The translations under genes were made by a program, and so were the position numbers. Below, in pieces: positions 3,613-58,150 of a DNA stretch of 64,000 nt. A model generated the notes under the pieces. That model did no database searches. It had not been told where the DNA came from and saw nothing but the letters and a program-made list of their open reading frames with translations. The DNA lies in NCBI GenBank assembly GCA_034440615.1, contig JAOTOM010002297.1, positions 1-64,000 of the forward strand, read 5' to 3'. The DNA is from Ashinkailepas kermadecensis. Its lineage: Eukaryota > Arthropoda > Thecostraca > Neolepadidae. Position 1 is the first letter of the stretch; each line of letters begins with the position of its first letter.

Positions 3613-3910
3613 GCGCATCTTTTTACGCCCTTACCCCTCAGGTGTTTTGGCGATGGGAAGAAAAAACGGCGGCGAGCAGCACTGCTAAATTGCCAGCACC
3701 ATTTCTTTCATCTCATCTGCGTCTGATGTGGAAGTTCCAACCTCACGTCAAGTAAGGTAGTTGACCTAGCTCAGATAAAATATGACCATCTCCAAAAATG
3801 TTTTTAGGATTAACAACTCATCTAGATGACAAGATTTTGAAATGAAACTTGCTACGTTAGTACAATTTGGCAGTGACTACGACATGTATATCTCGGATCT
3901 CCGTCTGTGG
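3613..3910. other. Unassigned spacer
   Basis: Non-repetitive spacer between the satellite and the TTAA element. No gene-like pattern seen. Confidence 0.4.
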
Positions 3911-7771: not shown

Positions 7772-8353
7772 CACGCACAGCAATCGTCAGTCCTCCACGG
7801 CCAAATGCTTGGGTTAAAAGACAAGTCGGATGCCTTTCACTTGAACGGTCACACCGTGCTCATTGGAAACGCGAGGTCCAAAAGGGGTACCATTTCAATA
7901 ATATTTTATGTCTGCTATCTTTCAGGACCATGACGAACAATAAAAAACCATATGGATTATATATACATACATACATACATAGTGTATCGTAGTACCCATA
8001 AGCTTTTTGGTATTGCAGCAGTATGTATGTATGATGCATGTTAACAATTATCCTTCAAGGAGACTATTAAGACGTCGAGCCAGGATAAGCGATGGCTAAC
8101 AACGACCATACGAAGCATTCATCAACGAGGATGATATTAAAAACAACACATCAGTTCTCAATACGCAGGGTACAAAAATGGTGGATTTGTATGTAGTTTG
8201 GATATTTGGGAGCTTCAGCTGCTTCTGCAATACTGCACCCTCCGCCCCCCCCCCACCAGTGGGGGATTTAACAGGCCAGAAGTAGCGATGTAACATCTGG
8301 CCCCAGCCTGTTGGAGGACTTAGTAAAACACGACCGTAGCGCGGGACGCCTAA
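7772..8353. other. Unassigned spacer
   Basis: No gene recognised. A short (CATA)n tract lies at about 7965-7981 and a C9 run near 8251. Confidence 0.4.
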
Positions 8354-8801
8354 CTGAGTGTCCTGCCACGTGGATTAAACTACACGACCTCGGCCATTCT
8401 CGAGTGTCGCGGGCGGGGCACCCAACTGAGTGTCCTGCCACGTGGATTAAGATATACGACCCCGGCCAATCTCGAGTGGCGCGCGCGGGGCACCCAACTG
8501 AGTGTCCTGGCACGTGGATTAAAATACACGACCCCGGCCATTATCGAGTGGCGCGCGCGGGGCACCTAACTGAGTGTCCTGGCACGTAGATTAAAATACA
8601 CGACCACGGCCATTCTCGAGTGGCGCGCGCGGGGCACCCAACTGAGTGTCCTGGCACGTGGATTAAAATATACGACCTCGGCCATTATCGAGTGGCGCGC
8701 GCGGGGCACCCAACTGAGTGTCCTGGCACGTAGATTAAAATACACGACCCCGGCCATTATCGAGTGGCGCGCGCGGGGCACCCAACTGAGTGTCCTCGTG
8801 G
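8354..8801. repeat. 72-bp tandem repeat, about 6.2 copies
   Basis: Unit starts CTGAGTGTCC at 8354, 8426, 8498, 8570, 8642, 8714 and 8786, exactly 72 bp apart. Each unit holds CACGTGGATTAA, an ACGACC-CGGCCA core, TCGAGTGGCGCGCGCGG and GGCACCCAA. Open frames on both strands follow from the 24-codon period. Confidence 0.95.
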
Positions 8802-9260: not shown

Positions 9261-10894
9261 CGAATAACCGAATCGGCCCAGCAAATTCGCCGGGCTCTCA
9301 GAAACTCTAAAGTGAGCCAACTCGAGCGCGTGTCAGGAGACCGGGCGGTGGCAATGTGTGTCAGCTGACTTGTCTGTGCACGGCTACCGTATGGTCCGCC
9401 GAGTGACGAATGATGCGGCGAAGACAGACATCCTGCCTGCTTATGTAAAGGTGCATGAGGCCAAGGTAGAGTGCTATCCGGCAGTCAACAGCATGCAATT
9501 CACCCAGACGTCAGTTCTCTTGGATCATACATCAGCTCTCTACAGGCTCTACTGGATCATACGTCGCAGCGGCTGGTGGCATGTCTGCCGTCTGTCGCCC
9601 GTACGGACTCAGCTTCACCTGCCGACCAGCAGTCGACGTCATCCAGCACCTGCACTTCGGCCGTGCTTCACGTCAAATGGGAATTTCACGAAGCTACAGG
9701 GCAAGTTGTATACAAACAGATGGGAGACGGCGATGTAGCTGCAGAACAAAATCTGTTCTGTACCACTCTGATGCCTTCGCAACTAACAGTGGGTGGCACT
9801 TGCGTCTGGACCAACCCACGCCGTCTTCAATCCGCTTCTGCCGGCCGTTGCGGATCCAGTACAAGCGCGAGACAGCAGAGGCCTCCCGGAAAGAACGAGA
9901 CAGTGACGTACTCAGTAGACGTATCCGAGATACGTCTACTACGTCGCCGGAACAGGCGGTACCAGTTTCAGAGTGGCGTACAATGTTCAACTCACCATGA
10001 TTCACAGCAAGGTGGTGGACACTCTGACTAACACCGGGAGCAGCAGCATGACATGTACCATTTCTGGGTGCACACCTCGTTAGATGAATGACCTGTCTGC
10101 TGCCGCTGCTCGACCTACCCGCGAGGGTGCATGCCAGCTCGGTCTCTCAACTATGCATGCCTGGATTCGATGCATTGAGTGCCTTCTCCACATTTCTTAC
10201 CGCCTGGAGGTCAAAGTGTGGGCAGTGTCAGGCGAAGAAAACAAGATGCGTGTGAAAGAAAGAAGGAAATAATTACATCAATAGTTCCTGGAGAGACTGG
10301 ATCTTGCCGTGGATCAGCCATGTGTTAGGTAGGTAGGTACGTCTGACGACGGGAACACGGCTCGGCGTGCCTTCAGAGACCCATATTTTACTTGTGTGTC
10401 ATATCTTAGGGATGTATTTTGGAATAATTTCAGCCACTTAAGACAAGATCTTGGATCTATTCTGCGGCGCAATTATAAAGTCACATTTACAGTGCAGAAT
10501 GCTCGCATAGCAAACGCTAACTAATAATTATCCCATAGATGAGTGCCCACGGACTTCGCTTATGACGTCATTATGACGTCAGTATGACCGGACGTCGATC
10601 TTTTAAAACGAGGTACACTAGATACTCATGTAGGTATGTGCACAATTTGAGCTCTCTACCTCAATTGGTTCCAGAGATATTTCGCGGAAGCAAAATGAGG
10701 GGAGGGGAATGTTCCCTTCACTCTTGTAGGCATTACCTCTGAAATTCCTGGGTTAAGCAATCTTTAAGACAATAGAGCTTCTCCATATGTTCGAAATGTG
10801 AAGCTCTTTCGGTTAAGACCAAAATCGCCCCTGTAACTAGCATACTTTGTCCGCAATGATTTATGGCCAGTTTTTCCCTCGAGTTATCACAGTG
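9261..10894. other. Unassigned; includes paired TGACGTCA sites
   Basis: Several short overlapping frames between 9358 and 10272 have no recognisable domain and stops in all frames. Two perfect CRE-type palindromes TGACGTCA lie at 10563 and 10574. A (GGTA)n run is near 10328. Confidence 0.4.
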
Positions 10895-11023
10895 TGTACT
10901 GGTGAGGCCACATCGAGCCGCAACACTGGTGAGGCTACACCGAGCCACTACACTAGTGAGGCCACACCGAGCCACTACACTGGTGAGGCCACACCGAGCC
11001 GCTACACTGGTGATGGCGTGGCT
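10895..11023. repeat. 27-bp minisatellite
   Basis: About 4.5 copies of a 27-bp unit ACTGGTGAGGCCACACCGAG plus CCACTAC, ending in a partial copy. Confidence 0.93.
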
Positions 11024-11029
11024 CCACCA

Positions 11030-11110
11030 GTGAAATATTGCCGTGCAATATATATTGCATATTGTATATACAATATACAACTCAATTCAAAACAATATAC
11101 AATGCAATAT
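11030..11110. repeat. AT-rich imperfect inverted repeat
   Basis: Blocks of GCAATATATATTGCATATTG and CAATATACAATGCAATATAT face each other around an AACTCAATTCAAAAC centre. Confidence 0.6.
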
Positions 11111-11140
11111 ATCACCTGTCACAGTTCAGTGACAGGTGAT
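11111..11140. other. Perfect 12-bp stem-loop at the CR1 5' junction
   Basis: ATCACCTGTCAC, a 6-nt loop AGTTCA, then GTGACAGGTGAT. The right arm is also the first recognisable CR1 coding sequence. Confidence 0.85.
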
Positions 11141-12640
11141 CAGATACACAATGTTGATTTCATTGATAGTGATGTTGTTTTCAATTATATCAGAAAAATA
11201 AAGCCAAACAAGGCAGCAGGACCTGATGGAATTTACGCTAGGGTATTGCGGGAAGCTGAAAAGGAACTGGCAATTCCACTTAGTATAATATTTTGTAGAT
11301 CAGTTTCACAAAATGAAATTCCAACAAATTGGAAAAGGGCAAATATAGTTCCTATTTTCAAGAAAGGAGAAAGAGGGGAAGTTGAAAATTATAGGCCAGT
11401 AAGCCTCACGTCCCTAGTCTGCAAGGTACTCGAATCAATTATCAAAGATAGAATAGTTAGTTTTCTGGAAGGAAACAGATTGATTCAAGATACTCAACAT
11501 GGGTTTAGAAAAGGGAGATCGTGTCTCACAAATCTCTTGGACTTTTTAAATTTTGCTACAGAAAAATTTGATTAGGGAAATCAGGTTGATGAAGCATATC
11601 TTTACTTTAGTAAGGCCTTTGACAAGGTACCCCATAAACGGTTAATGATGCAGCTTCAGGTCCATGGCATTGCAGGTAGCATCCTAAAATGGATCGAGTT
11701 GTGGCTTTCAGATAGACAGCAGAGAGTGATGCTTAATGGTACAAAGTCATCATGGCAAAATGTTCTCAGTGGAGTCCCTCAGGGGTCGGTACTGGGGCCA
11801 TTGTTGTTCATTATATTTGTGAATAGCATTGAATGTGGCCTAAGCAGTAAGGTTTTGAAATTTGCGGATGATTTGAAGATCTTTAGGGCAATAACAGGGC
11901 ACAGTGAGCAGGTTTTGCTGCAGATCGACTTAGACGAGCTTGTGAAGTGGTCCGAAAAATGGCAAATGAAGTTTAATTTTGATAAGTGCAAAGTCATGCA
12001 TGTAGGTAGGCAGCATATGAAGGCGCCATACTTGATGGATGGCCAAGTACTATCTGTGACTCAGCAGGAGAAGGAATTAGGTATTATTTTGAACACAAAA
12101 TTGGGGCATCAGAACAGACCAAAGAAGCCAGGAAGAAGGCACTAAGAATGCTTGGGGCGACACAGAGGAATGTGTCATACAAAAGTGAGGAGGTCATCAG
12201 GAAGCTTTACTGTGCATATGTCAGGCCACATTTGGAATACTGTGTCCAAGCTTGGTCCCCTAGTTATGAGAAAGATTGTTGGCTTTTAGAGAGAGTACAA
12301 AAGAGGGCAACAAGAATGGTTAATGGTATAGGCAACCTGGCATATGAGGAAATATTGAAGAAATTGAATATGTTTTCATTTAGATATAGAAGGCTGAGAG
12401 GAGATCTCATCGAGGTTTTTTAATTTGTTCATGATCAGGAACAGGGATATCTCGGGGAAATGTTTGAATTTAACGGAAATGATGCAATTAGAGGTCATCA
12501 ATTCAAAATTAAAGTTAATCACAGCAGGACAAGGTTAAGACAGTCTTTCTTCACCAACAGGGTAGTAGAATACTGGAACCAGCTGCCAGGAACAATTGTC
12601 AGTAGCAACACACTGAACATCTTTTAAAACGGCATAGACA
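11126..12640 (+). pseudogene. CR1-like non-LTR retrotransposon, 5'-truncated reverse transcriptase
   Basis: Encodes the RT of a CR1-type retrotransposon, which copies element RNA into DNA at a nicked target. Readable landmarks are KPNKAAGPDGI, NYRPVSLTSLVCKVLE, QHGFRKGRSC, the motif A region FSKAFDKVPH, GVPQGSVLGPLLF, the catalytic FADD, and the CR1-typical tail RPHLEYCVQAWSP, LLERVQKRATR, RRLRGDLIEVF and RVVEYWNQLP. It starts in the middle of the RT, so the endonuclease and ORF1 are missing. Damage: an in-frame TAG at about 11573; Tyr instead of the usual Asp before FSKAFD; a frameshift near 12145; a stop at 12421. The 3' end runs towards the (TA)n tract. Dead copy; CR1 clade call is from motif recall. 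Confidence 0.9.
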
Positions 12641-20757: not shown

Positions 20758-21425
20758 GGGCGTGGTGAGGCCACCCAGGCCACAGGAGCGTGGTGAGGTT
20801 ACCTGGTCTACAGGAACGTGGTGAGGACACCCAGCCCACAGGATCGTGGTTGGTTGGTTGGTTATTTGGGCTTAGGGGCGCATCGACTGCGATGGTCATA
20901 CAGCGCCCATCCACAGGAGCATGGTGAGGCCACCCAGGCTACAGGTGCGTGGTGAGGCCACCCAGGCTACAGGGAGCTTCGTGAGGCCACCCAGGCTACA
21001 GGAGCGCGGTGAGACCACCAAGCCCACAGGGAGCTTCGTGAGGCCACCCAGGCTACAGGAGCGTAGTGAAGCTACCCAGGCTACAGGAGCGCGGTGAGGC
21101 CACCAAGCCCACAGGGAGCTTCGTGAGGCCAACCAGGCTACAGGAGCGTAGTGAAGCTACCCAGGCTACAGGAGCGCGGTGAGGCCATCCAGGCCACAGG
21201 GAGCATCGTGTGGCCACCCAGGCTACAGGGAGCGCGGTGAGGTCACTTAGGCCACAGGGAGCTTCGTGAAGCCACCCAGGCTACAGGAGCGTGATGAGGC
21301 CACCCAGGCTACATAATCGTGGTGAGGTTACATGGTCTACAGGAACGTGGTGAGGACACCCAGCCTGCAGGGAACGTGATGAGGCCACCCATGCACAGGA
21401 GCATGGGCGGGAGCTAGGCCACATG
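20758..21425. repeat. 28/29-bp minisatellite, about 20 copies
   Basis: Units near GCGGTGAGGCCACCCAGGCT plus ACAGGAGC, some with GGGAGCTTCGTGAGG. A compound block (GGTTAC-TGGTCTACAGGAACG then GTGAGGACACCCAGCC) occurs near both ends, suggesting higher-order duplication. Confidence 0.9.
20849..20908 (-). mobile_element. Short 3'-tail copy of the I-clade element, inside the minisatellite
   Basis: Inverse of the 3' end of the element at 45431-47620: (GGTT)n, TATTTGGGCTTAGGGGCGCA, TCGACTGCGATGGTCATA, CAGCGCCC. Only the last 55-60 bp are present. Flanking units prevent a clear target-duplication call. Confidence 0.8.
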
Positions 21426-23216: not shown

Positions 23217-23460
23217 TGTGGTTAGCTGCGCACTGTAGTGACGCACCTATACCGGAATATCTGGCACATCAGGACCGTCTTCGCTTTTATAACATGACAT
23301 TTGTGTCCACTCATCACATACAGGCATGACATCTTGTTCTTATGAAACGTGTTATGCGGTAGGGCGGACTCACCGGTTTTATTGCAGAACTTCGGATTAT
23401 GCGTCCCAATTAGGAGAATCAAGTAACCTGCTTTATTTTATGTACCATATACACACATAG

Positions 23461-23511
23461 TTGGTTATTGGAGTTTAAGGGCACATCGACTGCGTCGGTC
23501 ATGCAGCGCCC
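23461..23511 (-). mobile_element. Short 3'-tail copy of the I-clade element
   Basis: TTGGTTATTGGAGTTTAAGG, GCACATCGACTGCGTCGGTC, ATGCAGCGCC, the inverse of the tail at 47556-47615. No clear target duplication. Confidence 0.75.
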
Positions 23512-24592
23512 AACATGCACCAATGGAAGCCATTAGGTGTGGCTTGTTCAACAGATCAGTACGAGAGACGAACATGTTTGAAACAGGGACACGAAGTGCG
23601 AACATGAAAAGACGTCTGACATGACGACACTACTTTACATTACTCTGGTATTAAGCTTGATCAACACGCGCGCCACTCTAGCAGCACTCTCAAGCAACTA
23701 GCTCAGGTGACTTCGGTGACACGGGAAACAAAACAAGTCAGACGATACCAGAGAAATCACATATGGCCGTAGCAGCAGTACTGGTGGTAATTTCAAGCCA
23801 GGCTCTAGGATATAGCATTGTCACTTGACAACTGTTGCGCATCGCTTCAATGTGCTGCCACCTAGTGACGACCCGGCGCATTTAGCCTTCGGGTCCCCAC
23901 CGACGTCGCTGTTTACCTGAGCGGGCTCCGCGCATAGCTTTGCCAGTTGGGCGCGGTCGCAGCGGATGTGGCGGGATGGGCGGGAGACGGAGGGTGTGGC
24001 AGGATGGGCGATATGACCGGAGCCTTGGATAGAGCTGTTGGTTGCTGTGATTCTATTTAATTTCAGTTAATGTTTTCTGTGATCGGTGACAAAAGGATAC
24101 TACAACAAGGAAGACAGACGATTGACGTCAGAACACACGTACCAATCTGATAGCTGCTCGCCCTCTCCACCCAATACAACAATCAGCCGAACCCCTCCAC
24201 CCCGAGAAAGCAGCGCGAACTACGTGATAGGCCAGCATCACCCGCATCAGGTTGGCACCATAAGTTCACTTTTTTCAGCAGATAAAGGACGACCCTCTCG
24301 GCCTTCAAACTCACTCGGATCAAAGGTAACACACACTGAGTACTATTATTTACTCCTGAAGGCCACGTTGGCGAAAAAGGTGTCAGATGTAAATATTGTT
24401 TCAGAATATAAATATGCACGAGACAAGCATTGCAGCATCTACAGAACAAAACCGTTCTTTTTTATTCCATTTGTCGGTTCCCTTAATGCGCGATTTTTGC
24501 ACGGCAGTATCCAGCAATTGTGTAGGTTATATGTATGCTTGCGGCGCATACATACCGGCGGTGGACTAAGAAAGGCACACACGCCATACAGC
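23512..24592. other. Unassigned spacer
   Basis: No gene recognised. An open frame from 24086 reaches the 36-bp array at its end, but its first 150 codons carry no recognisable domain. Confidence 0.4.
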
Positions 24593-30043: not shown

Positions 30044-31172
30044 GACAGTGACTAACCAGTGACGGACCAGACGTGACAGTGACGGACCAGACGTGACAGT
30101 GATGGACCAGACGTGACAGTGACGGACCGGACGTGACAGTGACGGACCGGACGTGACAGTGACGGATCAGACGTGACAGTGACGGATCAGACGTGACAGT
30201 GACACGGACCAGACGTGACAGTGACGGACCGGACGTGACAGTGACGGACCAGACGTGACAGTGACGGACCAGACGTAACAGTGACGGACCAGACGTGACA
30301 GTGACGGACCAGACGTGACAGTGACGGACCAGACGTAACAGTGACGGACCGACGTGACAGTGACGGACCGGACGTGACAGTGACGGACCGGACGTGACAG
30401 TGACGGACCAGACGTGACAGTGACGGACCGGACGTTACAGTGACGGACCAGACGTGACAGTGACACGGACCAGACGTGACAGTGACACGGACCAGACGTG
30501 ACAGTGACACGGACCAGACGTGACAGTGACGGACCGGACGTGACAGTGACGGACCGGACGTGACAGTGACGGACCAGACGTGACAGTGACGGACCAGACG
30601 TGACAGTGACGGACCAGACGTGACAGTGACGGACCGGACGTGACAGTGACGGACCAGACGTGACAGTGACGGACCAGACGTGACAGTGACACGGACCAGA
30701 CGTGACAGTGACGGACCAGACGTGACCTTGACGGACCAGACGTGGCAGTGACGGACCGGACGTAACAGTGACGGACCAGACGTGACAGTGACGGACCAGA
30801 CGTGACAGTGACGGACCAGACGTAACAGTGACGGACCAGACGTGACAGTGACGGACCAGACGTGACAGTGACGGACCAGACGTGACAGTGACGGACCAGA
30901 CGTGACAGTGACGGACCAGACGTGACAGTGACACGGATCAGACGTGACAGTGACGGACCGGACGTGACAGTGACACGGACCAGACGTGACAGTGACGGAC
31001 CAGACGTGACCTTGACGGACCAGACGTGGCAGTGACGGACCAGACGTGACAGTGACGGACCAGACGTGACAGTGACGGACCAGACGTGACAGTGACACGG
31101 ACCAGACGTGACAGTGACGGACCAGACGTGACAGTGACGGACCAGACGTGAGAGTGACACGGACCAGATCGG
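30044..31172. repeat. 20-bp minisatellite, about 56 copies
   Basis: Unit GACAGTGACGGACCAGACGT with GACCGG and GATCAG variants and occasional 22-bp units carrying GACACGG. The 20-bp unit has no stop in any minus-strand frame, so three overlapping open frames of 240-350 codons exist there (the longest 30187-31236). They translate into the same His/Val/Ser/Pro pattern and are not evidence of a gene. Confidence 0.97.
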
Positions 31173-32124: not shown

Positions 32125-33417
32125 ATGCAAGTAGTGTCGGGTCAGCTTCATGGTTTGCTAGCTCAAATATCGCATGCTGTCCTCTATGGTCTAGACTATT
32201 TCTACGAGTACACAGCGATGCATCCTCCTCCAATGTTGTACCTTATCTCATTATCCATGTCATCATCTGGTGCTGAATCACCTTCACTCACTTCTCCTGA
32301 TTTGTCCGCGAGGATAATCCTCAGAAAGTTCATCTTCACCAGGGCAGTCTTCACAGTTGTGAATCATGCAATCACGGTTTTCCGTACCACATACATGGTG
32401 ATCGAGGACGTCACGGAATTTGAGACCGGGAAGGCCAAGAGCGAACATGAGCATTTTGGGTTTTGATAAGTGCACATGCACACCGAGTGCGTCCCACTGC
32501 TGCCTGCAATACTTCAGACGAAAGGCAGCAAAGGTTAAGAAGCCGGTGCGAAGGTTTTCATGGTTCTACTCGTATAGATCATATATCTCAGACAAGTTTC
32601 CCAAAACAAGCTTTTCTGGACTCTACGTTTGGTTCCAACAGTTTGTCAGACCGCGACACAGTCTGTTGTGCCGAGACACATTCGGCTGACCTGGTCCGAC
32701 TCATAAAAAGCTTTACTTTTACCTTGTCTGCGTCCGACATCCTGATAAATGTTCTCGCTTCACAGGCAGCACGGTCAGCGGGAGTTAGCAGTGAGCACTG
32801 GTCACCCAAACATGGCGCCACCCTTCGTATGTGCCCATCCTGATTTTTCACCTCCTCATCTTTGTATTTTCGCGATGCAATCAATGGTTGTGCGAATGGT
32901 TCCTCGGCTATCAGAATGCGATTGCTATGTTGTGGATGCTTCTCTCTCCTTGTAATTCATCGTAAGGTACACCTCATAAATCATCTTCTACCACAACTTG
33001 GAGATATTTTACCATTTCTTTTTAACCTTTTACCTCACGAGTTAGAATATTTCTGCAACACAACACTCAGGATAAGATAACCAACATTATCATCCAAGCA
33101 CGTGCCTCGAATGCCAGGATTGGATTACAAGGATTGTGTTGTGTGTTGTGCAAGGATTGGATTACAGTAATATACCGCGTTAAACACATATTAAAACAAT
33201 GCACGATAAACTAGCGCAAAAACAGCCATACAAGCCTAATTTAGAATGGGTTTATAGAGTTTTAGTTTTTTTTGCTTCGAAAGATCAAATAACGAACGTC
33301 ATTTCTCTACCTTTTCCAATCGCATTGTGATTGTCCAGAAAGTTAAGGTAGGTCATGTGATCTTAGGGCACGATGTCACGATTTGAAATAGGCCGTGAAT
33401 GAAAATTCCGAGATAGC
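32125..33417 (-). pseudogene. F4 transposon-like coding family, copy 1
   Basis: Minus-strand reading gives a decayed protein: DEEVKNQDGHIRRVAPC and SDADKVKVKLF at 32884-32588, then, with frameshifts, AGSSGTHSVCMCTY near 32500, LMFALGLPGLKFRDVLDHHV and a Cys-rich GTENRDCMIHNCEDCPG near 32360. The GTHSVC-C pattern followed by C-x(5)-C-x2-CP recalls a widespread uncharacterised invertebrate family often linked to transposons (from memory). It aligns with 49111-49202 plus 53185-54274 and 55291-55385 and lacks the two large insertions present there, so it acts as the empty-site reference. Truncated near 32125. Non-functional. Confidence 0.65.
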
Positions 33418-35783: not shown

Positions 35784-35846
35784 GTTAGTTAGTTATTAGG
35801 GATTTAGGGCGCATCGACTACATCGGTCATATAGCGTCCATAACAG
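35784..35846 (-). mobile_element. 63-bp retrotransposon tail with TAAGTTA target duplication
   Basis: (GTTA)n, TTAGGGATTTAGGGCGCATC, GACTACATCGGTCATATAGC, GTCCATAACAG, the inverse of the I-clade 3' end. TAAGTTA flanks it at 35777-35783 and 35847-35853. Confidence 0.8.
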
Positions 35847-36111
35847 TAAGTTATTTACGCTTCGATATATTGCATATGCTAGTTAAATTCGCATAATACT
35901 GCTGTTCCTTAATCATAGTAACAAACGGAACCTAAATACGTCATGGCATAGTTAAACCTTTCACCTTGGTGCATATATTACAGGAAATGATACCTGGGCC
36001 AGGTAATCAAAAAGTTTCCCCGATTGGACAATATTCGAGTTGTCGCCTAAAACTTCACTTAGTGACAGTGACTGAACGCATCCAGTGACTGGTTTTGAGG
36101 TCAGGGCATTT

Positions 36112-38036: not shown

Positions 38037-38470
38037 TTAAATATGAATGGGATGCTGCGCTCGAAAAGGTTCCTTATATTCCCGTCCTTGGCACCCTTGA
38101 CACCCTTGACCGTTGGCGTCCTTCGACCTTGACACCTATGACCAAGAGATATTTGCATCGGGTCAAATCACTACCATCGTGTCAAAGGCAACAGAGCACT
38201 TGTTGCCACTGTGCGTGTTTGATAAGAACTCTTTACTCAACTTCTCCCTCATGTCATCAGCTTAAAAAAACAATTCGTTCGTATTACATTTAACGTTAAC
38301 AACCGTTACGTATAACGTTCCGCCTTTAATAAATCATATTTATCCGCTCACAAAAGTGACCTGACTCGAATTCATTTTGTCGATCAGAAGTTGTAGCTGA
38401 CACAATGTAAAGCAAAATAAAACAAAAAATCAGTACCAAACTAGATGACGAAGCATTGCAGATGTCCTAT
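38037..38470. other. Unassigned spacer
   Basis: No gene recognised; short direct repeats of GACACCCTTGACC-type sequence at 38085-38135. Confidence 0.4.
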
Positions 38471-38799
38471 CATGTTCACGTCCTGTGTGTCAGGACCCCA
38501 CTATCATATTCACGTCCTGTGTGTCAGGACCCCACTATCATGTTCACGTCCTGTGTGTCAGGACCTCACTATCATGTTCACGTCCTGTGTGTCAGGACCA
38601 CACTATCATGTTCACGTCCTGTGTGTCAGGACCCCACTATCATGTTCACGTCCTGTGTGTCAGGACCCCACTATCATGTTCACGTCCTGTGTGTCAGGAC
38701 CCCACTATCATGTTCACGTCCTGTGTGTCAGGACCCCACTATCATGTTCACGTCCTGTGTGTCAGGACCCCACTATCATGTTCACGTCCTGTGTGTGAG
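38471..38799. repeat. 34-bp minisatellite with a hairpin in each unit
   Basis: About 9.5 copies of TGTTCACGTCCTGTGTGTCA plus GGACCCCACTATCA. Each unit contains GTCCTG-TGTGT-CAGGAC, a 6-bp stem with a 5-nt loop. Units abut with no spacers, so it is not a CRISPR array. Confidence 0.95.
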
Positions 38800-42430: not shown

Positions 42431-43045
42431 TATACCGTACTTTGCTGGATGGACAGCACATTGGAGCACCACGTGCCGCACCACGTGACATGCCAAATGG
42501 GGCTGTGACCGGACATACACACAGGGGTGTGACCAGGTAGGCATACAGCACATTGGAGCACCACGTGCCCACCACGTGACATGCCATGAATGCGTCAGAC
42601 CGGTTAAAAAAGAAGGCATGACAGCACATTGGAGCACCACGGATAGGCATGCCAAATGGCTCAGAGCGGTGTGACCGACATACCACAGGTAGGCAAGCCG
42701 CCAAATAAATATACCGTACTTTGCTGGATGGACAGCACATTGGAGCACCACGTGCCGCACCACGTGACATGCCAAATGGCTCAGAGCGGTGTGACCGGAC
42801 ATACCACAGAGTGTAGGGCAGGCCGCCAGGAAGGCATGACAGCACATTGGAGCACCACGTGCCGCACCACGTGACATGCCAAATGGCTCAGAGCGGTGTG
42901 ACCGGACATACCACAGAGTGTAGAGGAGGCCGCCAGGAAGGCATGACAGCACATTGGAGCACCACGTGCCGCACCACGTGACATGCCAAATGGCTCAGAG
43001 CGGTGTGACCGGACATACCACAGAGTGTAGGGGAGGCCGCCAGAA
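42431..43045. repeat. 107-bp tandem repeat with CACGTG pairs
   Basis: About 5.5 copies; unit starts GACAGCACATTGGAGCACCA and contains CACGTGCCGCACCACGTGAC, then a CTCAGAGCGGTGTGACCGG block and a CCACAGAGTGTAG block. Early units are shortened. A side motif AAATAAATATACCGTACTTT appears at 42425 and 42704, marking a higher-order repeat. Confidence 0.93.
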
Positions 43046-45430: not shown

Positions 45431-47620
45431 ACGTTGCCTTCAACACCATATGACAACACTTGGCGCCGCCGCATTCTCATGAAGGCATTCAGGTATGGAA
45501 TCCGTGGCTCCATGGGACTCTTCCTCCAAAACTTTTTGTCAAGACGAGTTTTCCGTGTATGTATTGGAAACCACCTGTCGGAGAGATATCCGCAGACTGA
45601 GGGGGTACCACAGGGCAGTGTGCTAAGCGTTGCACTGTTTGCCATCATGATTAATGATATATGCGAGTCCCTTCCTCGACAGATTGGCAGGTCACTTTTC
45701 GTGGATGATGTTGCAATTTGGTGCTGCACATCCAGTGCACCATCAATGGCCCGGCAGTTGCAGCTAGCAGTAACTCACTTGGAAAACTGGAGCTCTGAGA
45801 ACGGGTTTTGGTTCTCGGTTAAAAAAAAACGTTGGGATGCAGTTTTGTCGGCGTCGTCGAAGCTGTCCAGACCCAACTGTCGAACTGTATGGGAACCCAT
45901 TCCCTTCCAGCGCGCTGCCCGCTTTTTAGGAGTAATTTTTGACACCCGTCCTACTTACAAGGAACACTTCAAAGCACTTCGGGAGAAGTGCTTTACATCG
46001 CTAAACCTACTGAAGATGGTTGCACGCAGGTCCTACGGAGGAGGCAGAAGAACCATGCTGCTGTTGTATCGTTCCCTCATCCGGGCAAGACTGGACTATG
46101 CATGTTTTGTATATAACAGTGCATGTACAACAAGCAAACGCACACTGGACACTGTACACCACTCGTCCCTCCGCATTGTGACCGGCGCTTTTCGCACTTC
46201 GCCTTCTGTAAGCCTTCTGGCTGAAGCTCATGAACCGCCACTCTCGCTCCGACGTGAAATGCTCGGGATGCGCTACGCTTGCAAGCTGCGTCAATTCCCT
46301 GACCATCCTACATATGCGCACGTTTTCTCTCGTCGCCTAATCTCATCATTCTATCGAGGACGTACTATGCATTCCACCCCCTTTTGCGTTAGGATACGTA
46401 GGATCTTTGAGGACAGTGGAATTCGACTGAAGGGAATCATGCAGTCCAATTTTACGCAGACGCCGCCATGGCAAGTGACCGCTCCGGTAATAGACATGTC
46501 GCTTTCTTCTGTAAGGAAGGAGGATGCTACACCACAAGACCGTCTGTCACGTGCCCTAGAACATATAGCCTCATTCGAGGGATACGTCCCGATATATACA
46601 GACGAATCTAAGACTGACGCTGGTGTGGGCAGTGCATTTGTTTCTGGGTCTCTGTCAAGATCTTTTTCCCTACCACCACAAGCGACGGTCTACACATCCG
46701 AGCTGGTTGCCATCACGAAGGCCCTCAGTTTTATCGAAGTGGGGCGGGAGACCTCGCATGCCATTTTTACCGATTCCTCAGCAGTCTCTGGGCGCTAAAA
46801 CAGTTTAACCCACCTGACTCCATTGTACAAGATGTTTTACCGCGTCTTAAACTGCTGGCTCAAGCTGGAAAGGCTGCTGTCCTCTGTTGGATCCCGAGCC
46901 ATGTCGGCATCGTGGGGAACGAGGCAGTAGATGCTGCTGCGAAGCGAGCAGCCAAAGCCCCATGCCTACGATCTATGCCGCTCCCAGCGAGAGAATATTA
47001 CCGCTCTATCGTGACCTTTGTTTAACAAAAAAAATGGCAGCTTAACTGGGATACGTTGCAGCTCAACAAATTACGAGCAATCAAGCCACGTCTTGGAGAG
47101 TGGCCCTCGTCCTACCGTAGGACGAGGCGAGACGAGGTTGTACTCTGCCGCCTTCGGCTGGGGCACACCCACCCAACACACCAACATCTGCTTTGTGGGG
47201 AGGACAGGCCAAATGTCCTCGATGTCATGCACCGCTGTCAGTGCGTCACGTTCTGATTTCATGCCCCCTGCCTGCCAATGATCGAAGACGTATTTTTGGA
47301 GGAATGCAGTCGATGTCACTCCGCGATCTCCTGGGTGACCAATCGCCCATGGTAACTTCAGGACAACTTTTTCGCTTTATCTCGGATGTCGACTTCACAG
47401 CAATTTACACCCCTCACTGACATGGAACACTAGAAGCTGCCTCACGTAACGCATGACCTGCTCCAAGCTGCCTCACGTAACCTGCTTTTATTGTTAAGGT
47501 TCGTATGTTACTGTTACTGTCGAAACCAATCCTCTCAAGCTGTACATCTAATATTGTTATGGACGCTGTATGACCAACGCAGTCGATGCGCCTCTAAACC
47601 CAAATAACCAACCATTCATT
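45431..47620 (+). pseudogene. I-clade non-LTR retrotransposon, 5'-truncated (RT, RNase H, 3' tail)
   Basis: Starts inside RT motif A (YDNTWRRRIL). Then GVPQGSVLSVALFAIMINDI, catalytic FVDDVAIW, RAARFLGVIFD, LDYACFVYNSAC, LRIVTGAFRTSPSVSLLAEA and HEPPLSLRREMLGMRYACK. RNase H follows: YTDESKTDAGVGSAF, SELVAITKALSFIE, IFTDSS, and after a frameshift near 46775 WALKQFNPPDS and CWIPSHVGIVGNEAVDAAAK. The C-terminus keeps LGEWPSSYRRTRRDEVVLCR. One frame is open for 454 codons (45434-46798). A stop occurs near 47022. RNase H after RT and the EPPLSLRR block indicate the I clade. The 3' end is GGACGCTGTATGACCAACGC, AGTCGATGCGCC, CTAAACCCAAATAACCAACC. ACCATT near both ends may be the target duplication. 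Confidence 0.9.
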
Positions 47621-48177
47621 TCGTGTTTCGTTTCGTAAATTATGATATTTTTATCCAACAGTGTAATGTTGTTCCTCCCGCACCGTCGGTGCCGGCATGG
47701 GATTTGATAACTCAGCGTTTTGGAAATGTATGCACACACTGCGCCTGTGTGCTGTCGAGAGCACGCGTATGCGTGTTATGCTGTCGTGTCTTTTGTGAGA
47801 ATTTCGTGAAAATACATGTTTTGTATTGTTGGTGGTATTTCTACGCTATGGTTGTCATGATGCAGCTGATCAATGGACAAGATCCACGGGTTACGAGGCT
47901 GCAGGACACAAGGTTTGGTCACGTGCATGAACAGAGTGCATAATATGTGTGTTAAAATGATTGATGTTTCTGGAAATGTGACCACATGTTTGTTGGATTG
48001 TTTTTTATTGGTTTTGGATTGTGTTCGTTGGCTGATTACAAGTCAATTCAAATATGAACAAGTTGATATTTACAATATTTAGCATTGGGCGATTTCGATT
48101 TCGAAAGTAATTGAATACAAGCATTTTGTAGTAGCATTAAAAAACAACGATCATGTGCTAACACACACATCTTGTGT
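47621..48177. other. Unassigned spacer
   Basis: No gene recognised. The last 50 bp resemble the inverse of 48619-48670, so the TIR of the next element may extend into it. Confidence 0.4.
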
Positions 48178-48618
48178 ACCCTGCAAGCTGCATATTTGAC
48201 TACCCTGAGAGTGTGTCAGAAAGCACACTGAGAGTGTGCTTCCAAACGCCAAAATAGAGTGTTGACACGCTCACAAAGCACATAAGTTTTGTGTTTACAC
48301 AAGGGGAAAGCACGCCAACAGCGTGCTGTTCATAGTAATAACACACCCTTGTCGTGTAAGCACATTGTAAATGTACAAGAATCGTGTGTAAAATAATCAA
48401 ATGGGCCGCATTTTACACACTAATAGTGTGTTATTAACACACTATGTGTGTGTATTTCTGATGTGTAACACACAGTCGGTGTGTTTTCTATATGTGTAAA
48501 CACAGAATTAATGTGCACCATGGATGTGTTAACACGCCATATCTGTGTTGCAAAGCACAATCACAGTGTGTTTTTCGACACACTCTAAAGGTAGACAAAC
48601 ATGCAGCTTGCAGGGTCG
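48178..48618. mobile_element. GTGT-rich element with about 40-bp TIRs
   Basis: ACCCTGCAAGCTGCATATTT plus GACTACCCTGAGAGTGTGT at the left is mirrored by ACACACTCTAAAGGTAGACA plus AACATGCAGCTTGCAGGGT at the right. The interior is almost entirely short ACAC/GTGT inverted repeats, e.g. ACACACTAATAGTGTGT near 48416. Weaker inverted similarity continues about 50 bp beyond each end, so the true boundaries may be wider. No coding capacity. Confidence 0.72.
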
Positions 48619-48805
48619 AGATTTGTGCGTTAACACACGTACCTTGTGTTGTTTGCAGTGTTAAGACAAAATACTGGTGTTCGATAGTTTTCAGCGTATG
48701 TCACAGCTTATCTAGCACCATTCACTTGCTATTGCATAACACTCTCAACAATTACAAACTCGTCCAATCATACCAATTGTGCTACCATAGCCAATCTCAT
48801 CAGCA

Positions 48806-49202
48806 TCACATCCGCTGTATCCCGTCAGAGATACAACGGTACCTCTGATCGCACAGTACCTCGTCCTCACACCAGTACGCTACGAACAGATGAACCGTAG
48901 ACTGGGACGAGTCCCAGCGGAAGCCCTGAGCTGCATCATGCACTACAAATGAATATTTTCCAACGAAATCGCACTGGACAATCACTTCCCCTCCTTGACA
49001 GAGCCTTTGCGTAGGTGAAGTGCTGACCTTGTTTGCCAGCCACAAAGTGGTTGGTTATTAGGGTTTTAGGGCGCATCAACTGCATTGGTTATACAGCGCC
49101 CATGCAACAGGTGGTGTCTGGTCAGCTTCACGGTTTGCTGACTCAAATATCGCATGCCTTCCTCTTTTGGTCTAGACTATTTCTACGAGTGTATAGCGAT
49201 GC
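48806..49202 (-). pseudogene. F4 transposon-like coding family, copy 2, downstream coding part
   Basis: Minus-strand continuation of the F4 protein beyond two insertions. From 49202: MRYLSQQTVKLTRHH, then the 59-bp insertion at 49052-49110, then (across a frame change) FVAGKQGQHFTYAKALSRRG and EVIVQCDFVGKYSFVVHDAA, QGFRWDSSQSTVH. The D in QCDFVGKYSF could be a catalytic Asp of an RNase-H-fold transposase; that is inference. Excising the insertion plus one GTGGT restores LTRHHFVAGKQ in frame. The reading fades below 48840. Confidence 0.65.
49052..49110 (-). mobile_element. 59-bp retrotransposon tail with GTGGT target duplication
   Basis: Tail motif (TGGTTATTAGGGTTTTAGGG, CGCATCAACTGCATTGGTTA, TACAGCGCCC) between GTGGT at 49047-49051 and 49111-49115, interrupting the F4 reading frame. 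Confidence 0.85.
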
Positions 49203-49210
49203 GTGCTCAT
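49203..49210. other. Left 8-bp target site duplication (GTGCTCAT)
   Basis: Identical to 53177-53184. The F4 copy 1 site at about 32219-32226 shows the sequence once. Confidence 0.9.
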
Positions 49211-49715
49211 TAGACCGGAGCGTCAGAAGGCTTTTTCGGAATTTCCAATCGGCACTGGTGGTATGACTTGGCCAGATATATGTCTAGCCAGGATACGTTA
49301 AAAAAAAGTTGGAAAAAATAACGTTTACCTTTGCCAACTAGTCGCCGAACGAAACCATGCGAGTTGACTCCCGGCGTTGAAGTCTCCAGCGGAATTTCAT
49401 ATCTAGTGCCCTTAGAATCTCGAGAACTAAGAAATAGAGAGAGAGATGCGGCTTTCGCCTGCGGATGGACCTACCCATAGGCTAACGTTTTGGCCCTGAA
49501 AAATGTTGACCTATCTCCCATGGTTGACCTGCCAGGTCAGGTCAAAGAGGCAAACGTGGGTCATTTGGCGAAAATCGGCCCAATTTCAGCGTGTTTGAGG
49601 TCCAAGCTTCACAGAAATCGTATTATCTGCGGTAAAAACAACATGCATGATATAATGGCCTAATGTGTGCACATTTATAACAAAATTGGGTTCAAGGTCG
49701 AGTATAAACTCATCA
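49211..49715 (+). repeat. Left terminal inverted repeat of the hAT-like transposon
   Basis: Aligns with the inverse of 52685-53176 at roughly 85-90% over the outer 400 bp and more loosely to GCATTTATAACAAA near 49680. Contains TTGACCTGCCAGGTCAGGTC at about 49522. Confidence 0.88.
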
Positions 49716-50057
49716 CCCGTAAGTTTTCCGGCCAGCCGCCAGAGCCAAGTGCAGTCAATATGATAAATATCTTTTTTCTTGGCCTCCACAAACGAACAAC
49801 TGATAATAGCGACTTAAACTGGTAGATACCTATGTCGACTTTTTAACTCCAATCCCAACTATCGCATTCTGCACAAAGTTTGTCCAACCATGTGTTTCTG
49901 AGTTCCATCCAATGAATGTGTTTCACATGATAGTACCTATACCTGCCAAGTGCCTGTCTCATACAACCCACCCTCTGTTTCAGATTCTTACATCCGTTAC
50001 ATGTTCAAGTGTGCACGACTGCACGACATATCAAATAATAATTCTGAGCAATAGTTA

Positions 50058-52380
50058 ATGTTTAAAGTTATGGCTCAGGCCGATTATCGAACGCGCAGTA
50101 CGGAACGAAAGCATCCCGTGCTTACAGTCGGTCCGTTGTAACTGAAAGAAACCCGCCTTCCCTGGAAAAGTGAAGTGCTTGGATACTTCATGCTGGTCCA
50201 AGATCAGCTCGGAAAACGTGCTCCGGGTGTAACGGTCGCGAACGTTGTGATGGAAAAGATCTTGGCGATATGGGATCGCTCAAGCGCCGTTCAGTTTAGC
50301 ATAAAGCACAATCAGCGAGAAACACCTGTGGTTAAAACTGAAGGCGACGGGTATGCACTGGAGAGAAGCAATATTTTAAAACCCAAATCGATCGTGAAAA
50401 AGATTCTGAAACTGAGAGACAGTGCGCGACAGCTCATAAAGTGGACGGAAGCGGAGAAGCGTGGCTTGCCATTCCACACGGTTTCTGATTCTCTGAAAGA
50501 CGAACTGTTCGATATTCTGCTCTGTCAATGCGACCTGAAAGACAACAAGCCGTGCTCTTCCTGTCCTGCAGGGATGAGGATCCCTGTCCTAGAAGTTCCC
50601 TTCATAAAAGATCAGCGGACAGAACGGAAGCTGATAATATCGCATGCAGTGGACACGAAAGAAACGAAGAAGATGAGGAAAAAAAAGTAGGTCGGAGGAA
50701 TCAGCTGCGAAGCAAAAGGCTGCGTCATCAGGGTCGAATGAGGTGGATTCCGATCGTGATGAAGACATGAATGCAGACGAAGGCGACGAAGATGACGACG
50801 ATGGTGTAGTGACAGAGCCTGCCGTCGACCCCTACACCAACCAAGCGCGAGGGCGCGATGTCAAGCGGAACAGACACGAACTGAGAAATTTTTATCGGAT
50901 GTGTGACCGGTTTGGAATATCGGACCGCGCAGGATCGGCGCTGCTGAACGCTGCGCTGGTCGACTACGGAATTGTGACACAGGAAAATCTGAGTGGCCTG
51001 GTCGACCGTAGTAAGCTACGACGACAGCGAAAGAAGTGGGGAGAAGACGAGGTAGAAACAAGACGGAGGCAGAACCGAGAAGAGAACAACATCATCGGCA
51101 TCTTCTATGACGGGCGAAACGACACCAGCCTGATCACCAAAGACGGTAAAATTCGGAAGATAAAAGAACCCCACGAAGTAGTTGTAGCTGAACCTGGACA
51201 CAGATATATCAATCACGTCACACCAGAGAGGCACATCGCAGCAGCTATCACGTCCGTCATCACCGACATAGACGCGGAGCCGGTAGTCATCGGATCGGAT
51301 GGAACTGCCGTAAATACGGGGTCACACCGCGGGATCAACAGACGGATAGAACTAGCTTTGGGCCGACCGCTGCAGCACGCGATATGCGGATTGCATATGA
51401 ATGAGTTGACGATGAAGCACGTGTTTCTAAATGCGGATGGACAAACGAGTGGTCCGGCATCTTATAAGGGCAAAATGGGAGTGTCAATCAGCCAGGATCT
51501 CAGGAAACTGCCTATGACGCCTTTCAAACCTGTACCCGGCCTGATTGAAGAAATGCCGCCAGAAGTAGAGAACACGATCAGTCATGATCAAAGGTACCTC
51601 TACAAACTGAGCATCGCCGTGCAGAAAGGACCATCTGAGTTCGAGAAAATGCTTCTGACTATGGAGCCCGGAACTCTGCACAACGCCAGGTGGGTTACTT
51701 TAGCCAACCGCATCCTACGACTGTATGTGTCGACCAAGAAGCCGTGGAGCGCGTTGCGTCGCGTAGTATTTTTCATTCTGAACCAATACGTTCCAGGCTG
51801 GTTCAGGTTCAGGAAGTTCCAAAATGTCAGTGACGGGGCAAAAAACTTCCTCTTCTTGGTGCAGCTGTCTAAAGGGCTACCCGAAAAGGACAGGAAGGTA
51901 ACACACGTCGTTCTGAACTGGAACAGCTTCTGGGCTCACCATGAAAACGTGCTGATCTCAATGCTGGCGGACTCTGATGAGGAAGTACGGAAGTTTGCTG
52001 TTGCTAAGATCATGGCCTGTCGTGAGGGTAGAGCGAATGCTGCGGATGTTAGGAAATATGAGCATCCTAGGGATAATGTCAATCTTGGTGCATCGTCACT
52101 GAAAGAGTTGGTGCAGTGGGAAGCCGTGGCGCTGACAGAGCCGCCGCTCACAATGGTCCTCAGTGATACGGCTATCTGCGCCGCAGCGGATGCGCCCATC
52201 ACGTTCGCAGATGTTCCCTGTCACTCACAGAGCGTAGAGAGGTGGGTGGCTGAGGTCGCACAGGCATCTGCCAAAAAAGTTGGCCACGATGCCCGTCATC
52301 GCTTCATTCATTCGAGAGCACGATCCAGATCAGACTTGCCACTCATGGAGAGCAAACGCGACTTCTTCGAATGGCCGTGA
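50058..52380 (+). pseudogene. hAT-like transposase, interrupted by one stop and one frameshift
   Basis: Would cut and paste the element using its TIRs. ATG 50058 opens MFKVMAQADYRTRSTERKHP; an in-frame TAA at 50139 follows, then the frame is open to TAG 50688. An A8 run at about 50676 (KKMRKKK) marks a frameshift to the frame open to 52380. N-terminal part: LFDILLCQCDLKDN then SSCP, a possible C-x-C...C-x2-C zinc site, and FIKDQRTERK. Counting from codon 50743: acidic linker 5-20; FGISDRAGSALLNAAL 58-72; DRSKLRRQR 88-96; FYDGRNDTS 121-129 with D123; GSDGTAVNTG 184-193 with D186; CGLH 215-218; RW 316-317; VER 498-500 with E499. D, D, C-x2-H, RW, E in this order is the hAT catalytic layout. Total near 770 codons. 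The order also matches an uncharacterised invertebrate family (memory). Introns rather than damage remain possible. Confidence 0.85.
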
Positions 52381-52684
52381 ACTAGTTCGCGATATGTCCC
52401 GCCTACAACATCGGCCAATTCCCTGTCTGTTGGCTGCTCTTGGCATCGCTGTATGTGATAATTTGTTTTGTATGCATGTAACGAGAGCATGTTTTGCATA
52501 TCACCCGTGCAAATGTATCCAAATGTGAGCCAATACACGTGCATACCTGTATTGTATAAACAATCTTTAGTGATCTATCATTATACAATTCGTTGAAGCT
52601 CTACCGTGCACTGATAGCGGATTATGTGATCAGGAAATGTAAACAATAACATTTTCAAACAAAACTGTTTATGCCTGAGACTAT

Positions 52685-53176
52685 GCGAAATACTGAGTAC
52701 GAACTTGACCTTCAATCTCTTTGTTATAAATGCGTATAAACTAGGCCATTGCATCATTAACATCATTTGTTACACTTAGACTAAATGTGTACCAAGATTT
52801 GACCTCAAACAGCCGATTTTCGCCAAATGACCCACTTTTCCCCTTTGACCTGACCTTGCAGGTCAACCGTGTGAGTTAGGTGAACATTTTAGGGGACCAA
52901 AACGTTAACCTACGGATAGGCCTACCCGCAGGTGAAAACCGCATCTCTCTATATTTCTTAGTTCTCGAGATCCTAAGGGCACTAGATGTGAAATTCCGCT
53001 GGAGACTTCAACGCCGGCAGTCAACTTGCATGGTTTCGTTCGGCGACTAGTTGGCAAAGGTAAACGTTATTTTTTTCAACTTTTTTGAACGTATCCTGGC
53101 TAGACATATATCTGGCCAAGTCATACCACCATTGCCGATTGGAAATTCCGAAAAAGCCTTCTGATGCTCCGGTATA
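52685..53176 (-). repeat. Right terminal inverted repeat of the hAT-like transposon
   Basis: Inverse partner of 49211-49715; shares CGGCGACTAGTTGGCAAAGG, AGACATATATCTGGCCAAGT and GCCGATTGGAAATTCCGAAA with the inverse of the left end. Confidence 0.88.
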
Positions 53177-53184
53177 GTGCTCAT
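53177..53184. other. Right 8-bp target site duplication (GTGCTCAT)
   Basis: Exact repeat of 49203-49210. Confidence 0.9.
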
Positions 53185-55385: not shown

Positions 55386-55602
55386 ATGTGCCATTTCATG
55401 ATGCACTGCTCTAGTAGACAAACATGTTACCAGTACACCGTATCATTTTCTGTCTGACGCAGCCTATTAACAATCATTGGACCGAAGTAATCGATGCCAA
55501 CTGTGTCAAACGCCCTGAAGGTCGCAAAGCGGCAATCAGTTAGATTAGCCATCATGGGAGGTTGAGGACCTGCAGCACGAGTTGACCAGCACCAGAGGAC
55601 CA
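55365..55602 (-). pseudogene. BEL/Pao-type integrase fragment
   Basis: Minus-strand reading: STRAAGPQPPMMANL, CRFATFRAFDTVGIDYFGP and IVNR, then in a shifted frame VTCLSTRAVHHEMAH. PPMMANLP, then VGIDYFGP, then TCL-TRAVH-E is the signature of BEL/Pao LTR-retrotransposon integrase around its first catalytic Asp (in GIDYFGP). One frameshift and no surrounding pol or LTRs recognised, so it is a relic. It is fused directly to the truncated RT of the I-clade element A at about 55602. Confidence 0.8.
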
Positions 55603-58150
55603 GTTCACGGCTTCTAAAGAAATGATGGGTGAAGTAGTCATTGCACCGAGTGCGATACGGATTAATTTATTTTGAATGGTGTCTAAAATGTGTAAGAAGG
55701 ATGTGCTAGCACCAGTATATACTACGGATCCATAATATATTATGGGTAGAACTAAAGATTTGTAAAGTAACAGAAGTGTATGCCGGTCGGCTCCAAGTGA
55801 TGAAGAAGTGATGCATCGAAATAAATTCAGTTGGTCAAAACATTTGTTCTGGATGTGCTTGATGTGTTTATGCATTGAAAGCATACGGTCCAAAATAATA
55901 CAAAGAAATTTAAACGAATTTACAAAACATATATCATTCTTTCCGAGGTGAAGCGGTGTTTTTGGAATTGGACAGGGAGTGCATTTGCTAAATATCATGG
56001 TTGCAGATTTTGTAGCGGAAAAAATGAAACCATTCTTCAGGGACCATTGATATATTTTGTCTAGTGCGTTTTGCAGTTGAAATAAACAATGCTCGTAATT
56101 TTTTCCGGACCACAAAATTGCGCTGTCATCGGCAAACAAAGGATATGATACCTTAATAGGCATGTCGGCGAAAAGATCGTTAATGATGAGGTTGAATAAA
56201 ACTGGTGAAATGCAGCTTCCCTGTGGTAGTCCATTTTGAAGAATGTGTTGATCGAAGATGGCTGACCGGCACCTGATGTGGAATGGACGAGTACCGGATA
56301 TAAACCTACTAAATAATGAGCTAATTGTGCTTTTATACCGAGTTGCTGAATTTTGAAAAGTAATGCGGTTTTGAAAACCATATCGTAAGCTTTGCTTATG
56401 TCTAAAAATACTGCGACTGTGTGTTGATGTTTTTTTATAGCCTAGGCGGATGTCTGTTTCTAACCGAATAAGGTGATCTATTGTACTGCGTTCTCGCCGA
56501 AAACCACCTTGAAAGGGCGATAGAAGTGAATTTGTTTCCAGGTTCGAGGTCAGTCATTTAATAACTATTCGTTCAAAAAGTTTTCCTAAACAACTGGTGA
56601 GTGCAATGGGTCGAAAATCACTTGGGTTACTATGGTCTTTGGCTGGTTTTGGAATGGGGATGAGGATAGTTTTTCCATGCTTCAGGAAAGTTGTGATTTG
56701 ACCATAATGAATTAAATGTGTCGGAGATGCATTGTTTGGTGTGGTCAGATAAATGTCGAAAGAAGGAATAATGCAATTTGTCAGGTCCTACTGAAGTGCT
56801 ACCGGGGGAGGAAATGGCATTCTCCAGTTCAGAAAGATGAAAAGAAGCATTGTAGTACTCGGTATTGTCGGAATCAAAGAGGTCGAAATTGGTGTGAAAA
56901 GTGTGTTGTGCATTTTGTAAGAAATTAGGTCGGTAGATCTCATCGGAGCTATTATGGGCTATGGTATCAGCTATGGTATTTACTATGGTTTGTGAGTCTG
57001 TAATGGTGAGATTGTGGATTTTGAGAGCCTATAGATATTTGAATGGAGAGCGTCCGGACAAACGTCGGATTAATTGCCATATTTTACTTAAAGGTGATTG
57101 AAAAGTGAGCTGCTGTAAATATGAGGACCATGAACGGCGCTTAGCATCGCAAATGATGCGTCGGGTTCTCGCACGTTCACGGTTACGGGTGGTTAAATTT
57201 TCTTGATCGGGATGTCGTAAATACTTCCTAAATGCTCTTTTTCGAACCGCAATTGCTTGTGAAATTTCTAGACACCACCAAGGTACTGGTTTTCGTTTTG
57301 TGAAAGGATTCGTGAGTGGAATTGTAGTGGATGCTGCTTCGAAAAGTGTGTGTGTAATTGAGTTGATGTTTTCGACGGGAGAAATGTTGTGGTTGTATTG
57401 AAAATAAGAAAGTGCCTGAAATATTGTCCAATCGGCTTTGGAAATTTTCCAGCGTGGGATAAAATCTGGTGTGCTATCAGTAGCAGTTGAAAAAGTGGGT
57501 ATTAATTTGATGGGGTAGTGATCGCTGTCTTGAATGTCTGTGTCTATGGTCGAATCGAAATCGTTGGCCAGAGTTGGAGAGCAAATTGTCAAATCTATTG
57601 CAGTTTCTGTGTTGTGTCCGAGGTGAAAAAAAAGTTGGCTCTCCAGTGTTAAGTATTACTAAATTGTGTCGGTCCAAGATGTGTTGAATAATGTGTCCGC
57701 GAGTGTCTGGGTGTGTACATTTTTTTATCCCATGCTGGGTTATGAGCGTTGAAATCGCCAAGTAAGATGAACGGGTTCTTGAAATTTGTGATGAAGTTTT
57801 CTAATTGTGTCAAAATGTTTGTGTTGTCTGTAGACGGTGGAATGTATAGTGAGCATACATGTATATTTCGACCATGTAAGCGGAATGTACAAGCTACGGC
57901 TTGTAACGATGAATGAAGTGTAATTTGTGTATGTGTGTAATAATTGTTAATGTAAAGGGCTGTACCACCACTGTGGTGTGATCCAGGGACCTCGTGGCGG
58001 TGCACCGAATAATTGAAAAGATTGAAATTATATGTATTGGTAGGCAAAAACCAGGTTTCTTGAAGTGCGATGAGAATCTGAGTTAAGTTGCTAAAAAGGT
58101 TTTCATTTCTGCAAATTTGGAAATCAAACTACGGTAGTTCCATTGTAGAA
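55603..58150 (-). pseudogene. I-clade element A, ORF2 (endonuclease and RT), 3'-truncated
   Basis: Read from 58150 downward. Apurinic endonuclease: FLQWNYRSLISKFAEMKTFL, NSTFRLHGRN-type core read as CTFRLHGRNIHVCSLYIPP, LLGDFNAHNPAWD, then ILDRHNLVILNTGEPTFF and SDHYPIKLIP. A linker with PWWCLEISQAIAVRKRAFRK leads to RT: a degraded motif region at 56990-56400, MPIKVSYPLFADDSAI (catalytic FADD intact), KFLCIILDRMLSMHKHIKHI, LYKSLVLPIIYYGSVVY and LIRIALGAMTTSPIISLE, where the fusion to the BEL/Pao fragment occurs. RNase H is missing. Many frameshifts; not functional. Confidence 0.85.

Follow-up and report, generated by a model that had tools for sequence, protein, structure and literature searches.

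What kind of mobile element carries a broken gene between two long inverted ends in the genome of Ashinkailepas kermadecensis, and does it belong to the hAT superfamily? The question is raised by one locus of the window, which is the whole stretch of 64,000 nucleotides analysed here (contig JAOTOM010002297.1, positions 1 to 64,000), and in which a preliminary description had placed a hAT-like transposon of about 4 kilobases (kb) with a transposase of an uncharacterised family. The element is a young cut-and-paste transposon. Its fold, as predicted, and its targeting are those of hAT, its ends are unusually long, and its transposase stands outside the recognisable hAT families. With a probability of roughly 0.88, it is read here as a cut-and-paste DNA transposon having a Hermes-like RNase H transposase which acts with a stagger of 8 base pairs (bp) at nTnnnnAn sites. 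Hermes belongs to the Ac group of the hAT superfamily.

The window element occupies 49211-53176 (3966 bp) between two copies of GTGCTCAT, which have no strand and are located at 49203-49210 and 53177-53184; both border copies, already noticed earlier, were confirmed by direct reading and by the genomic copies, and the left one additionally by an empty site with one 8-mer. The left terminal inverted repeat (49211-49684, plus strand) starts with TAGACCGGAGCGTC, an end which is identical in most other copies, and the right terminal inverted repeat (52720-53176, minus strand) was delimited by the arm alignment and by the right ends of other copies. The two arms align in inverted orientation over 477 alignment columns at 84.5%, in agreement with the matching ends of about 500 bp described before. 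No second copy of the element was found in the rest of the window at E 1e-3. For the empty-site test the two flanks of the element were joined by a script and aligned within the window, and the window segment 32128-33315 (plus strand), 76% identical to the joined flanks, is the empty paralogous site of the element, with the single 8-mer ATCCTCCT at the insertion point. This alignment extends 103 bases to the left of the insertion point and 1.1 kb to the right, and is gapless at the insertion point itself, the nearest gap lying about 8 bases to its right; ATCCTCCT and GTGCTCAT are equal in 5 of 8 bases.

The genome assembly (907.7 Mb, 4689 contigs) was searched with the element at the DNA level, and the best 38 of 54 candidates were scored and read as loci. 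At least 30 near-full-length copies, 95-100% identical, were obtained and are called family A. Both ends were found in 33 of the 38 loci; L031, L032, L034, L035 and L036 are outside the duplication count, L036 and L035 having been read separately from it. When the flanking 8-mers were tabulated, the duplication was found to recur as the preliminary description had supposed: it is exact in 22 of the 33 two-ended loci and present with at most one mismatch in 27, and random re-pairing of left and right flanks (2000 rounds) gave a mean of 1.0 exact duplications (maximum 5) and of 2.2 (maximum 7) when one mismatch was allowed. The duplicated sites follow the consensus nTnnnnAn, with T at position 2 and A at position 7 each in 26 of 27 duplications, and each in 22 of 23 after removal of the sites made of A and T only. 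The common end of the family A copies is TAGACCGGAGCGTC, and the right end of the window copy is altered, its outermost bases being TATACC where the other right ends that were read have TAGACC. The duplication GTGCTCAT is identical at L001 and L009, whose flanks differ. A domesticated host gene or a segmental duplication in place of a mobile element, an idea which could draw on the broken state of the window copy and of most family A copies read, is hardly credible, since the copies lie in differing flanks with their own 8-bp duplications and the empty site at 32128-33315 speaks against it at the window locus; it was rejected.

The age and state of the family were analysed from 29 full-length copies, which have a mean distance of 0.76% to the majority and of 1.47% to each other. 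The variants are spread evenly over the three codon positions (125, 126 and 123), as expected of copies decaying after a burst, and judged by this divergence family A is young and recently multiplied. An intact single-exon frame of 773 residues was found in L012 and L021 only, that is in 2 of the 38 loci read, both among the full-length copies. One defective form is present at two sites, L037 and L038, which have a common internal deletion with identical filler bases; both lie in TA repeats, and over the 100 bases read their right flanks are different. In L036 two left ends face each other head to head between exact copies of ATATATAG, a structure which fits the near-symmetry of the element's ends. 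At L022 (4332-5945) a partial copy follows a full copy in inverted order, with an identical 26-bp flank behind both, and this arrangement arose either by aberrant transposition or replication or through a mistake in the assembly. Short non-autonomous derivatives were not recognised with the first 240 bp as query (best 40 of 90 candidates scored), which is weak evidence; the left ends recovered with this query lie on contigs that carry longer copies. Six of these contigs were absent from the full-element DNA search (C698, C4430, C3643, C1219, C2371 and C1590), and on all six the transposase protein was also found by the protein search of the genome.

The gene inside the window copy is one interrupted gene, as it had been described, and all its parts lie on the plus strand. 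It starts with the ATG at 50070 and its first section (50070-50141) is stopped by an in-frame TAA at 50139-50141, a region which is open as part of the one 773-residue frame in L012 and L021. The N-terminal part (50142-50690), recognised by frame reading and comparison with the intact copies, carries the CxC...CxxC and DQR motifs and loses its frame at about 50680, and the core of 567 residues continues in another frame (50677-52380), where the structure model predicts an RNase H-like catalytic domain with an all-helical insertion, a Hermes-like fold. Compared with the intact L012 and L021, the window copy has, besides the in-frame stop and the loss of frame, an in-frame deletion of 4 residues. 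The first putative catalytic Asp (YDGR, 51109-51111) is invariant in an alignment of 23 rows and conserved at 90% or more in a second alignment, which has 76 rows; the second (GSDGTAVNTG, 51298-51300), the C-x2-H motif (CGLH, 51385-51396) and the putative catalytic Glu (QSVER, 52237-52239) are supported by the same two alignments, and the RW motif (51688-51693) is reported invariant in the 76 rows; the spacing is further evidence for all five. The residues of Hermes come in the order D, D, C-x2-H, W, E, and both alignments of the family support the order D, D, C-x2-H, RW, E that had been noted as that of hAT transposases. Near the N terminus the cysteines CxC...CxC are conserved at 90% or more in the alignment of relatives, and the BED zinc finger is not among the 25 families listed of the 31 Pfam families touched by 50 relatives.

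The predicted core has Hermes as its clear best structural match, together with the helical insertion domain, and the model of the window core consists almost entirely of helix from the C-x2-H motif to the Glu. ISCth4, which we take to be a bacterial insertion sequence akin to IS256, matches over 260 residues with a score and coverage below those of Hermes. P-element, MULE (Mutator-like element) and KDZ structures are not among the structural matches listed, an absence which excludes nothing.

At the level of sequence the picture is different from that of the fold. The two window frames gave no Pfam match, PF05699 (Dimer_Tnp_hAT) included, and the 50 relatives, compared with Pfam at E up to 1, gave weak and scattered touches: HEAT in 6 relatives (best 0.014), HEAT_2 in 3 (best 0.0021), and, among others in a single member each, TNP-like_GBD (E 0.069) and hAT-like_RNase-H (E 0.13). 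As far as this could be tested, the family is uncharacterised, as had been claimed. Among PDB sequences only weak matches to unrelated proteins were found (best E 0.025). Canonical hATs are plentiful in this genome: the scoring of 150 out of 791 candidates gave at least 150 PF05699 matches, and all of these 150 lie away from the family A, B and C places, B and C being the two sister families treated below. With hhalign, single-sequence runs of the family against hAT gave 0.1-3.4%, and the positive comparisons gave 99.9-100% for hAT against hAT and 100% among the family A, B and C proteins. A global-mode comparison with L080, a sixth and more divergent hAT-like protein (89.5% against the hATs, 0.0% against the family), was set aside. 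The best local profile alignment still places the D...C-x2-H stretch of the family on the same stretch of the hATs.

The sister families come from the protein search of the genome, which gave 82 matches (best 77 of 2859 candidates scored). Family B (L039-L042) is 3.5 kb long and 99.4-99.6% identical in pairs, with frames of 784-793 codons intact in all four copies fetched; from the first Met the two proteins read have 772 (L039) and 780 residues. Its protein shares 45% identity with the intact proteins of family A, and no PF05699 was found in it by the Pfam scan. MULE and KDZ domains are not in the Pfam lists of this protein, the window frames or the 50 relatives, and no direct comparison with KDZ was made. 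Family C (L043-L045) is 3.8 kb long and 98.4-98.8% identical, with a 763-codon frame in one of three copies. Both sisters have TAGGGTG at both borders, against TAGACCGGAGCG in family A, and their inverted repeats cover 152-191 columns at 71-76% in family B and 317 columns at 90-93% in family C. The terminal bases of hAT elements are YARNG, which TAGGG of B and C fits and TAGAC of family A does not. Twenty B and C places were examined and 4 were dropped for not showing TAGGGTG ends; 10 of the 16 scorable copies have an exact 8-bp duplication, with T at position 2 in 8 of the 10 and A at position 7 in 7 of the 10. In a tree of 31 proteins families A and B form a clade together with P0002-P0004 (support 100/98); family C stands outside it on a long branch of unsure place, and more than one old branch has probably entered the genome. 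The B and C ends were not found at C3053, C2837 (104158-105696) and C4282, which probably represent a further, fourth related family.

Several observations weigh against the reading given above. Six of the 33 two-ended family A loci (L002, L003, L004, L007, L023 and L024) have no clean 8-bp duplication, so the ends and duplications proposed at the outset stood for most copies and not for all, and 6 of the 16 scorable B and C copies are likewise without one, L041 showing a 6-bp and C4594 a 9-bp repeat. The copy counts may include allelic duplicates among contigs, which were not systematically excluded. The hhalign comparison of the 50-relative profile with five canonical hATs of the genome gave a probability of 0.6%, against 0.1% for a reversed control, the hAT profile being thin with five rows of which two are near-identical. 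The inverted repeats are much longer than those of described hATs, for which 10-25 bp (PMC3942097) and 5-27 bp (PMC3517528) are given, and the long ends had rightly been called unusual for hAT. Finally, by Foldseek alone ISCth4 (2e-4) is ahead of Hermes (1.3e-3). Long inverted repeats and duplications of 8-11 bp are usual in Mutator-like elements, so that a MULE or IS256-type element would be suggested by the long repeats and by this best Foldseek E-value; we consider it improbable. The term hAT-like is supported for predicted fold, motif order and target choice, and not for sequence similarity, which could not be demonstrated. The family probably works like hAT and shares its origin; judged on sequence, it is a separate lineage beside the classical hATs, whose membership is not demonstrated by similarity.

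Among known systems, the element is like Hermes in its predicted catalytic fold with helical insertion, its motif order and its 8-bp duplications at nTnnnnAn, the target reported for Hermes with duplications of the same length and imperfect 17-bp end repeats (PMC10368747). It is unlike Hermes in having 477-column repeats against 17 bp, about 773 residues against 612, a CxC...CxxC region in the family with no BED finger recognised, and no match by Pfam or among PDB sequences. The Buster and Tip groups share the 8-bp duplications; Buster differs by its target nnnTAnnn (PMC3517528), and several proteins of the Tip clade are said to carry the hATC domain, while the five-exon BuT2 ends in 12-bp repeats (PMC3942097). 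The described side branches hAT5, hAT6 and hAT7 have duplications of 5, 6 and 7 bp (PMC12730594) against the 8 bp seen here, hAT7 being classed by a transposase similarity which is undetectable in the present family. P elements make duplications of 7-8 bp. A P-superfamily element would agree with the long repeats, since those of Galileo, a member of that superfamily, reach 1.2 kb (PMC2775673), and with the TNP-like_GBD touch in one of the 50 relatives. This alternative is very improbable: that E-value is about what chance would give and little different from that of hAT-like_RNase-H, the C-x2-H-to-Glu region of the core model is almost all helix, Hermes is the clear best structural match, and Galileo makes 7-bp duplications of the consensus GTAGTAC (PMC2775673).

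Relatives of the protein number 81 by single-sequence search, 703 by profile (120 of them listed) and 8 with the family B query. Most of their records are nameless, and the names given are uncharacterized, hypothetical or unnamed protein, as the preliminary description had it. The species named among the relatives listed are insects, namely Cacopsylla, Photinus, Carabus, Contarinia, Amyelois, Daktulosphaira, Diabrotica, Colias and Diatraea; in viral contigs 98 pattern stretches yielded 0 relatives. One relative, P0183, has the precomputed Pfam label PF27073, for which no naming paper was found and which may be a newer Pfam model covering part of the family. The literature gave no paper naming the family, and Repbase Reports, Dfam and most subscription papers, which were outside the scope of the search, may describe it. 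That the family is a hAT subfamily already held in Repbase or Dfam and missing from Pfam through sequence drift is a serious possibility, a little short of an even chance, and compatible with the proposed mechanism: the fold and the order of the motifs agree with hAT, as do the 8-bp duplications and nTnnnnAn, and Repbase names hAT families species by species (PMC4455052). It is opposed by the lack of profile convergence with canonical hATs, by the absence of family A, B and C places among the scored PF05699 matches, and by literature searches aimed at such a subfamily, which found no paper. A broader proposal, which we put forward tentatively and with some doubt, is a large undescribed lineage that kept the hAT fold, motif order and nTnnnnAn while losing sequence similarity, that has long repeats and a cysteine-rich N-terminus replacing BED, that would form its own superfamily by the Repbase convergence rule, and that occurs in insects and other hosts and is active in places.

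A mechanism may be proposed on the Hermes-like reading. The ends, duplications, empty site, target consensus and recent multiplication, as well as the intact genes of some copies and the one deleted form at two sites, can be read from the DNA itself. The transposase, of about 773 residues, would be encoded by a single-exon gene; its RNase H core would be Hermes-like, interrupted after the second Asp and before the Glu by an insertion made only of helices. This enzyme would bind the long, nearly symmetric terminal repeats, excise the element and join it to an nTnnnnAn target with an 8-bp stagger, giving the 8-bp duplications. Catalysis would lie with the conserved acidic residues, hairpins may be formed on the flanking DNA as in hAT, and the N-terminal CxC...CxxC may be a metal-binding site which replaces the BED finger. 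The broken window copy could have moved only with the enzyme of another copy, or before it was broken.

The window also holds other repeats. A separate inverted-end repeat (TGGTTGGTTATTAGGG...GCGCCCAT) lies at about 47559-49111 and recurs at 20855-20917, 23452-23573 and 35788-35862; a stretch similar to it touches the right side of locus L023, and it is likely a separate small transposon family. Tandem arrays are present at 287-3614, 30057-31168, 38467-38796, 8339-8796 and 42731-43043, in the largest of which a 38-bp unit is repeated 88 times and a 20-bp unit 55 times. A reverse transcriptase domain (PF00078) is found in three frames, at 45431-46798 (plus), 55552-56553 (minus) and 10841-11575 (plus), which are probably retrotransposon remains.

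The window copy and its sisters tie an unnamed class of proteins to mobile DNA and offer its relatives ends, a target rule and a mechanism, and repeat annotation could stop labelling these relatives as host genes. The four family B copies fetched, with intact frames and 99.4-99.6% identity, allow a direct test of activity. Hermes is described with dissimilar ends and BED-driven assembly (PMC10368747), and whether these are needed for the chemistry would be shown by a lineage of hAT fold whose ends are long and symmetric.
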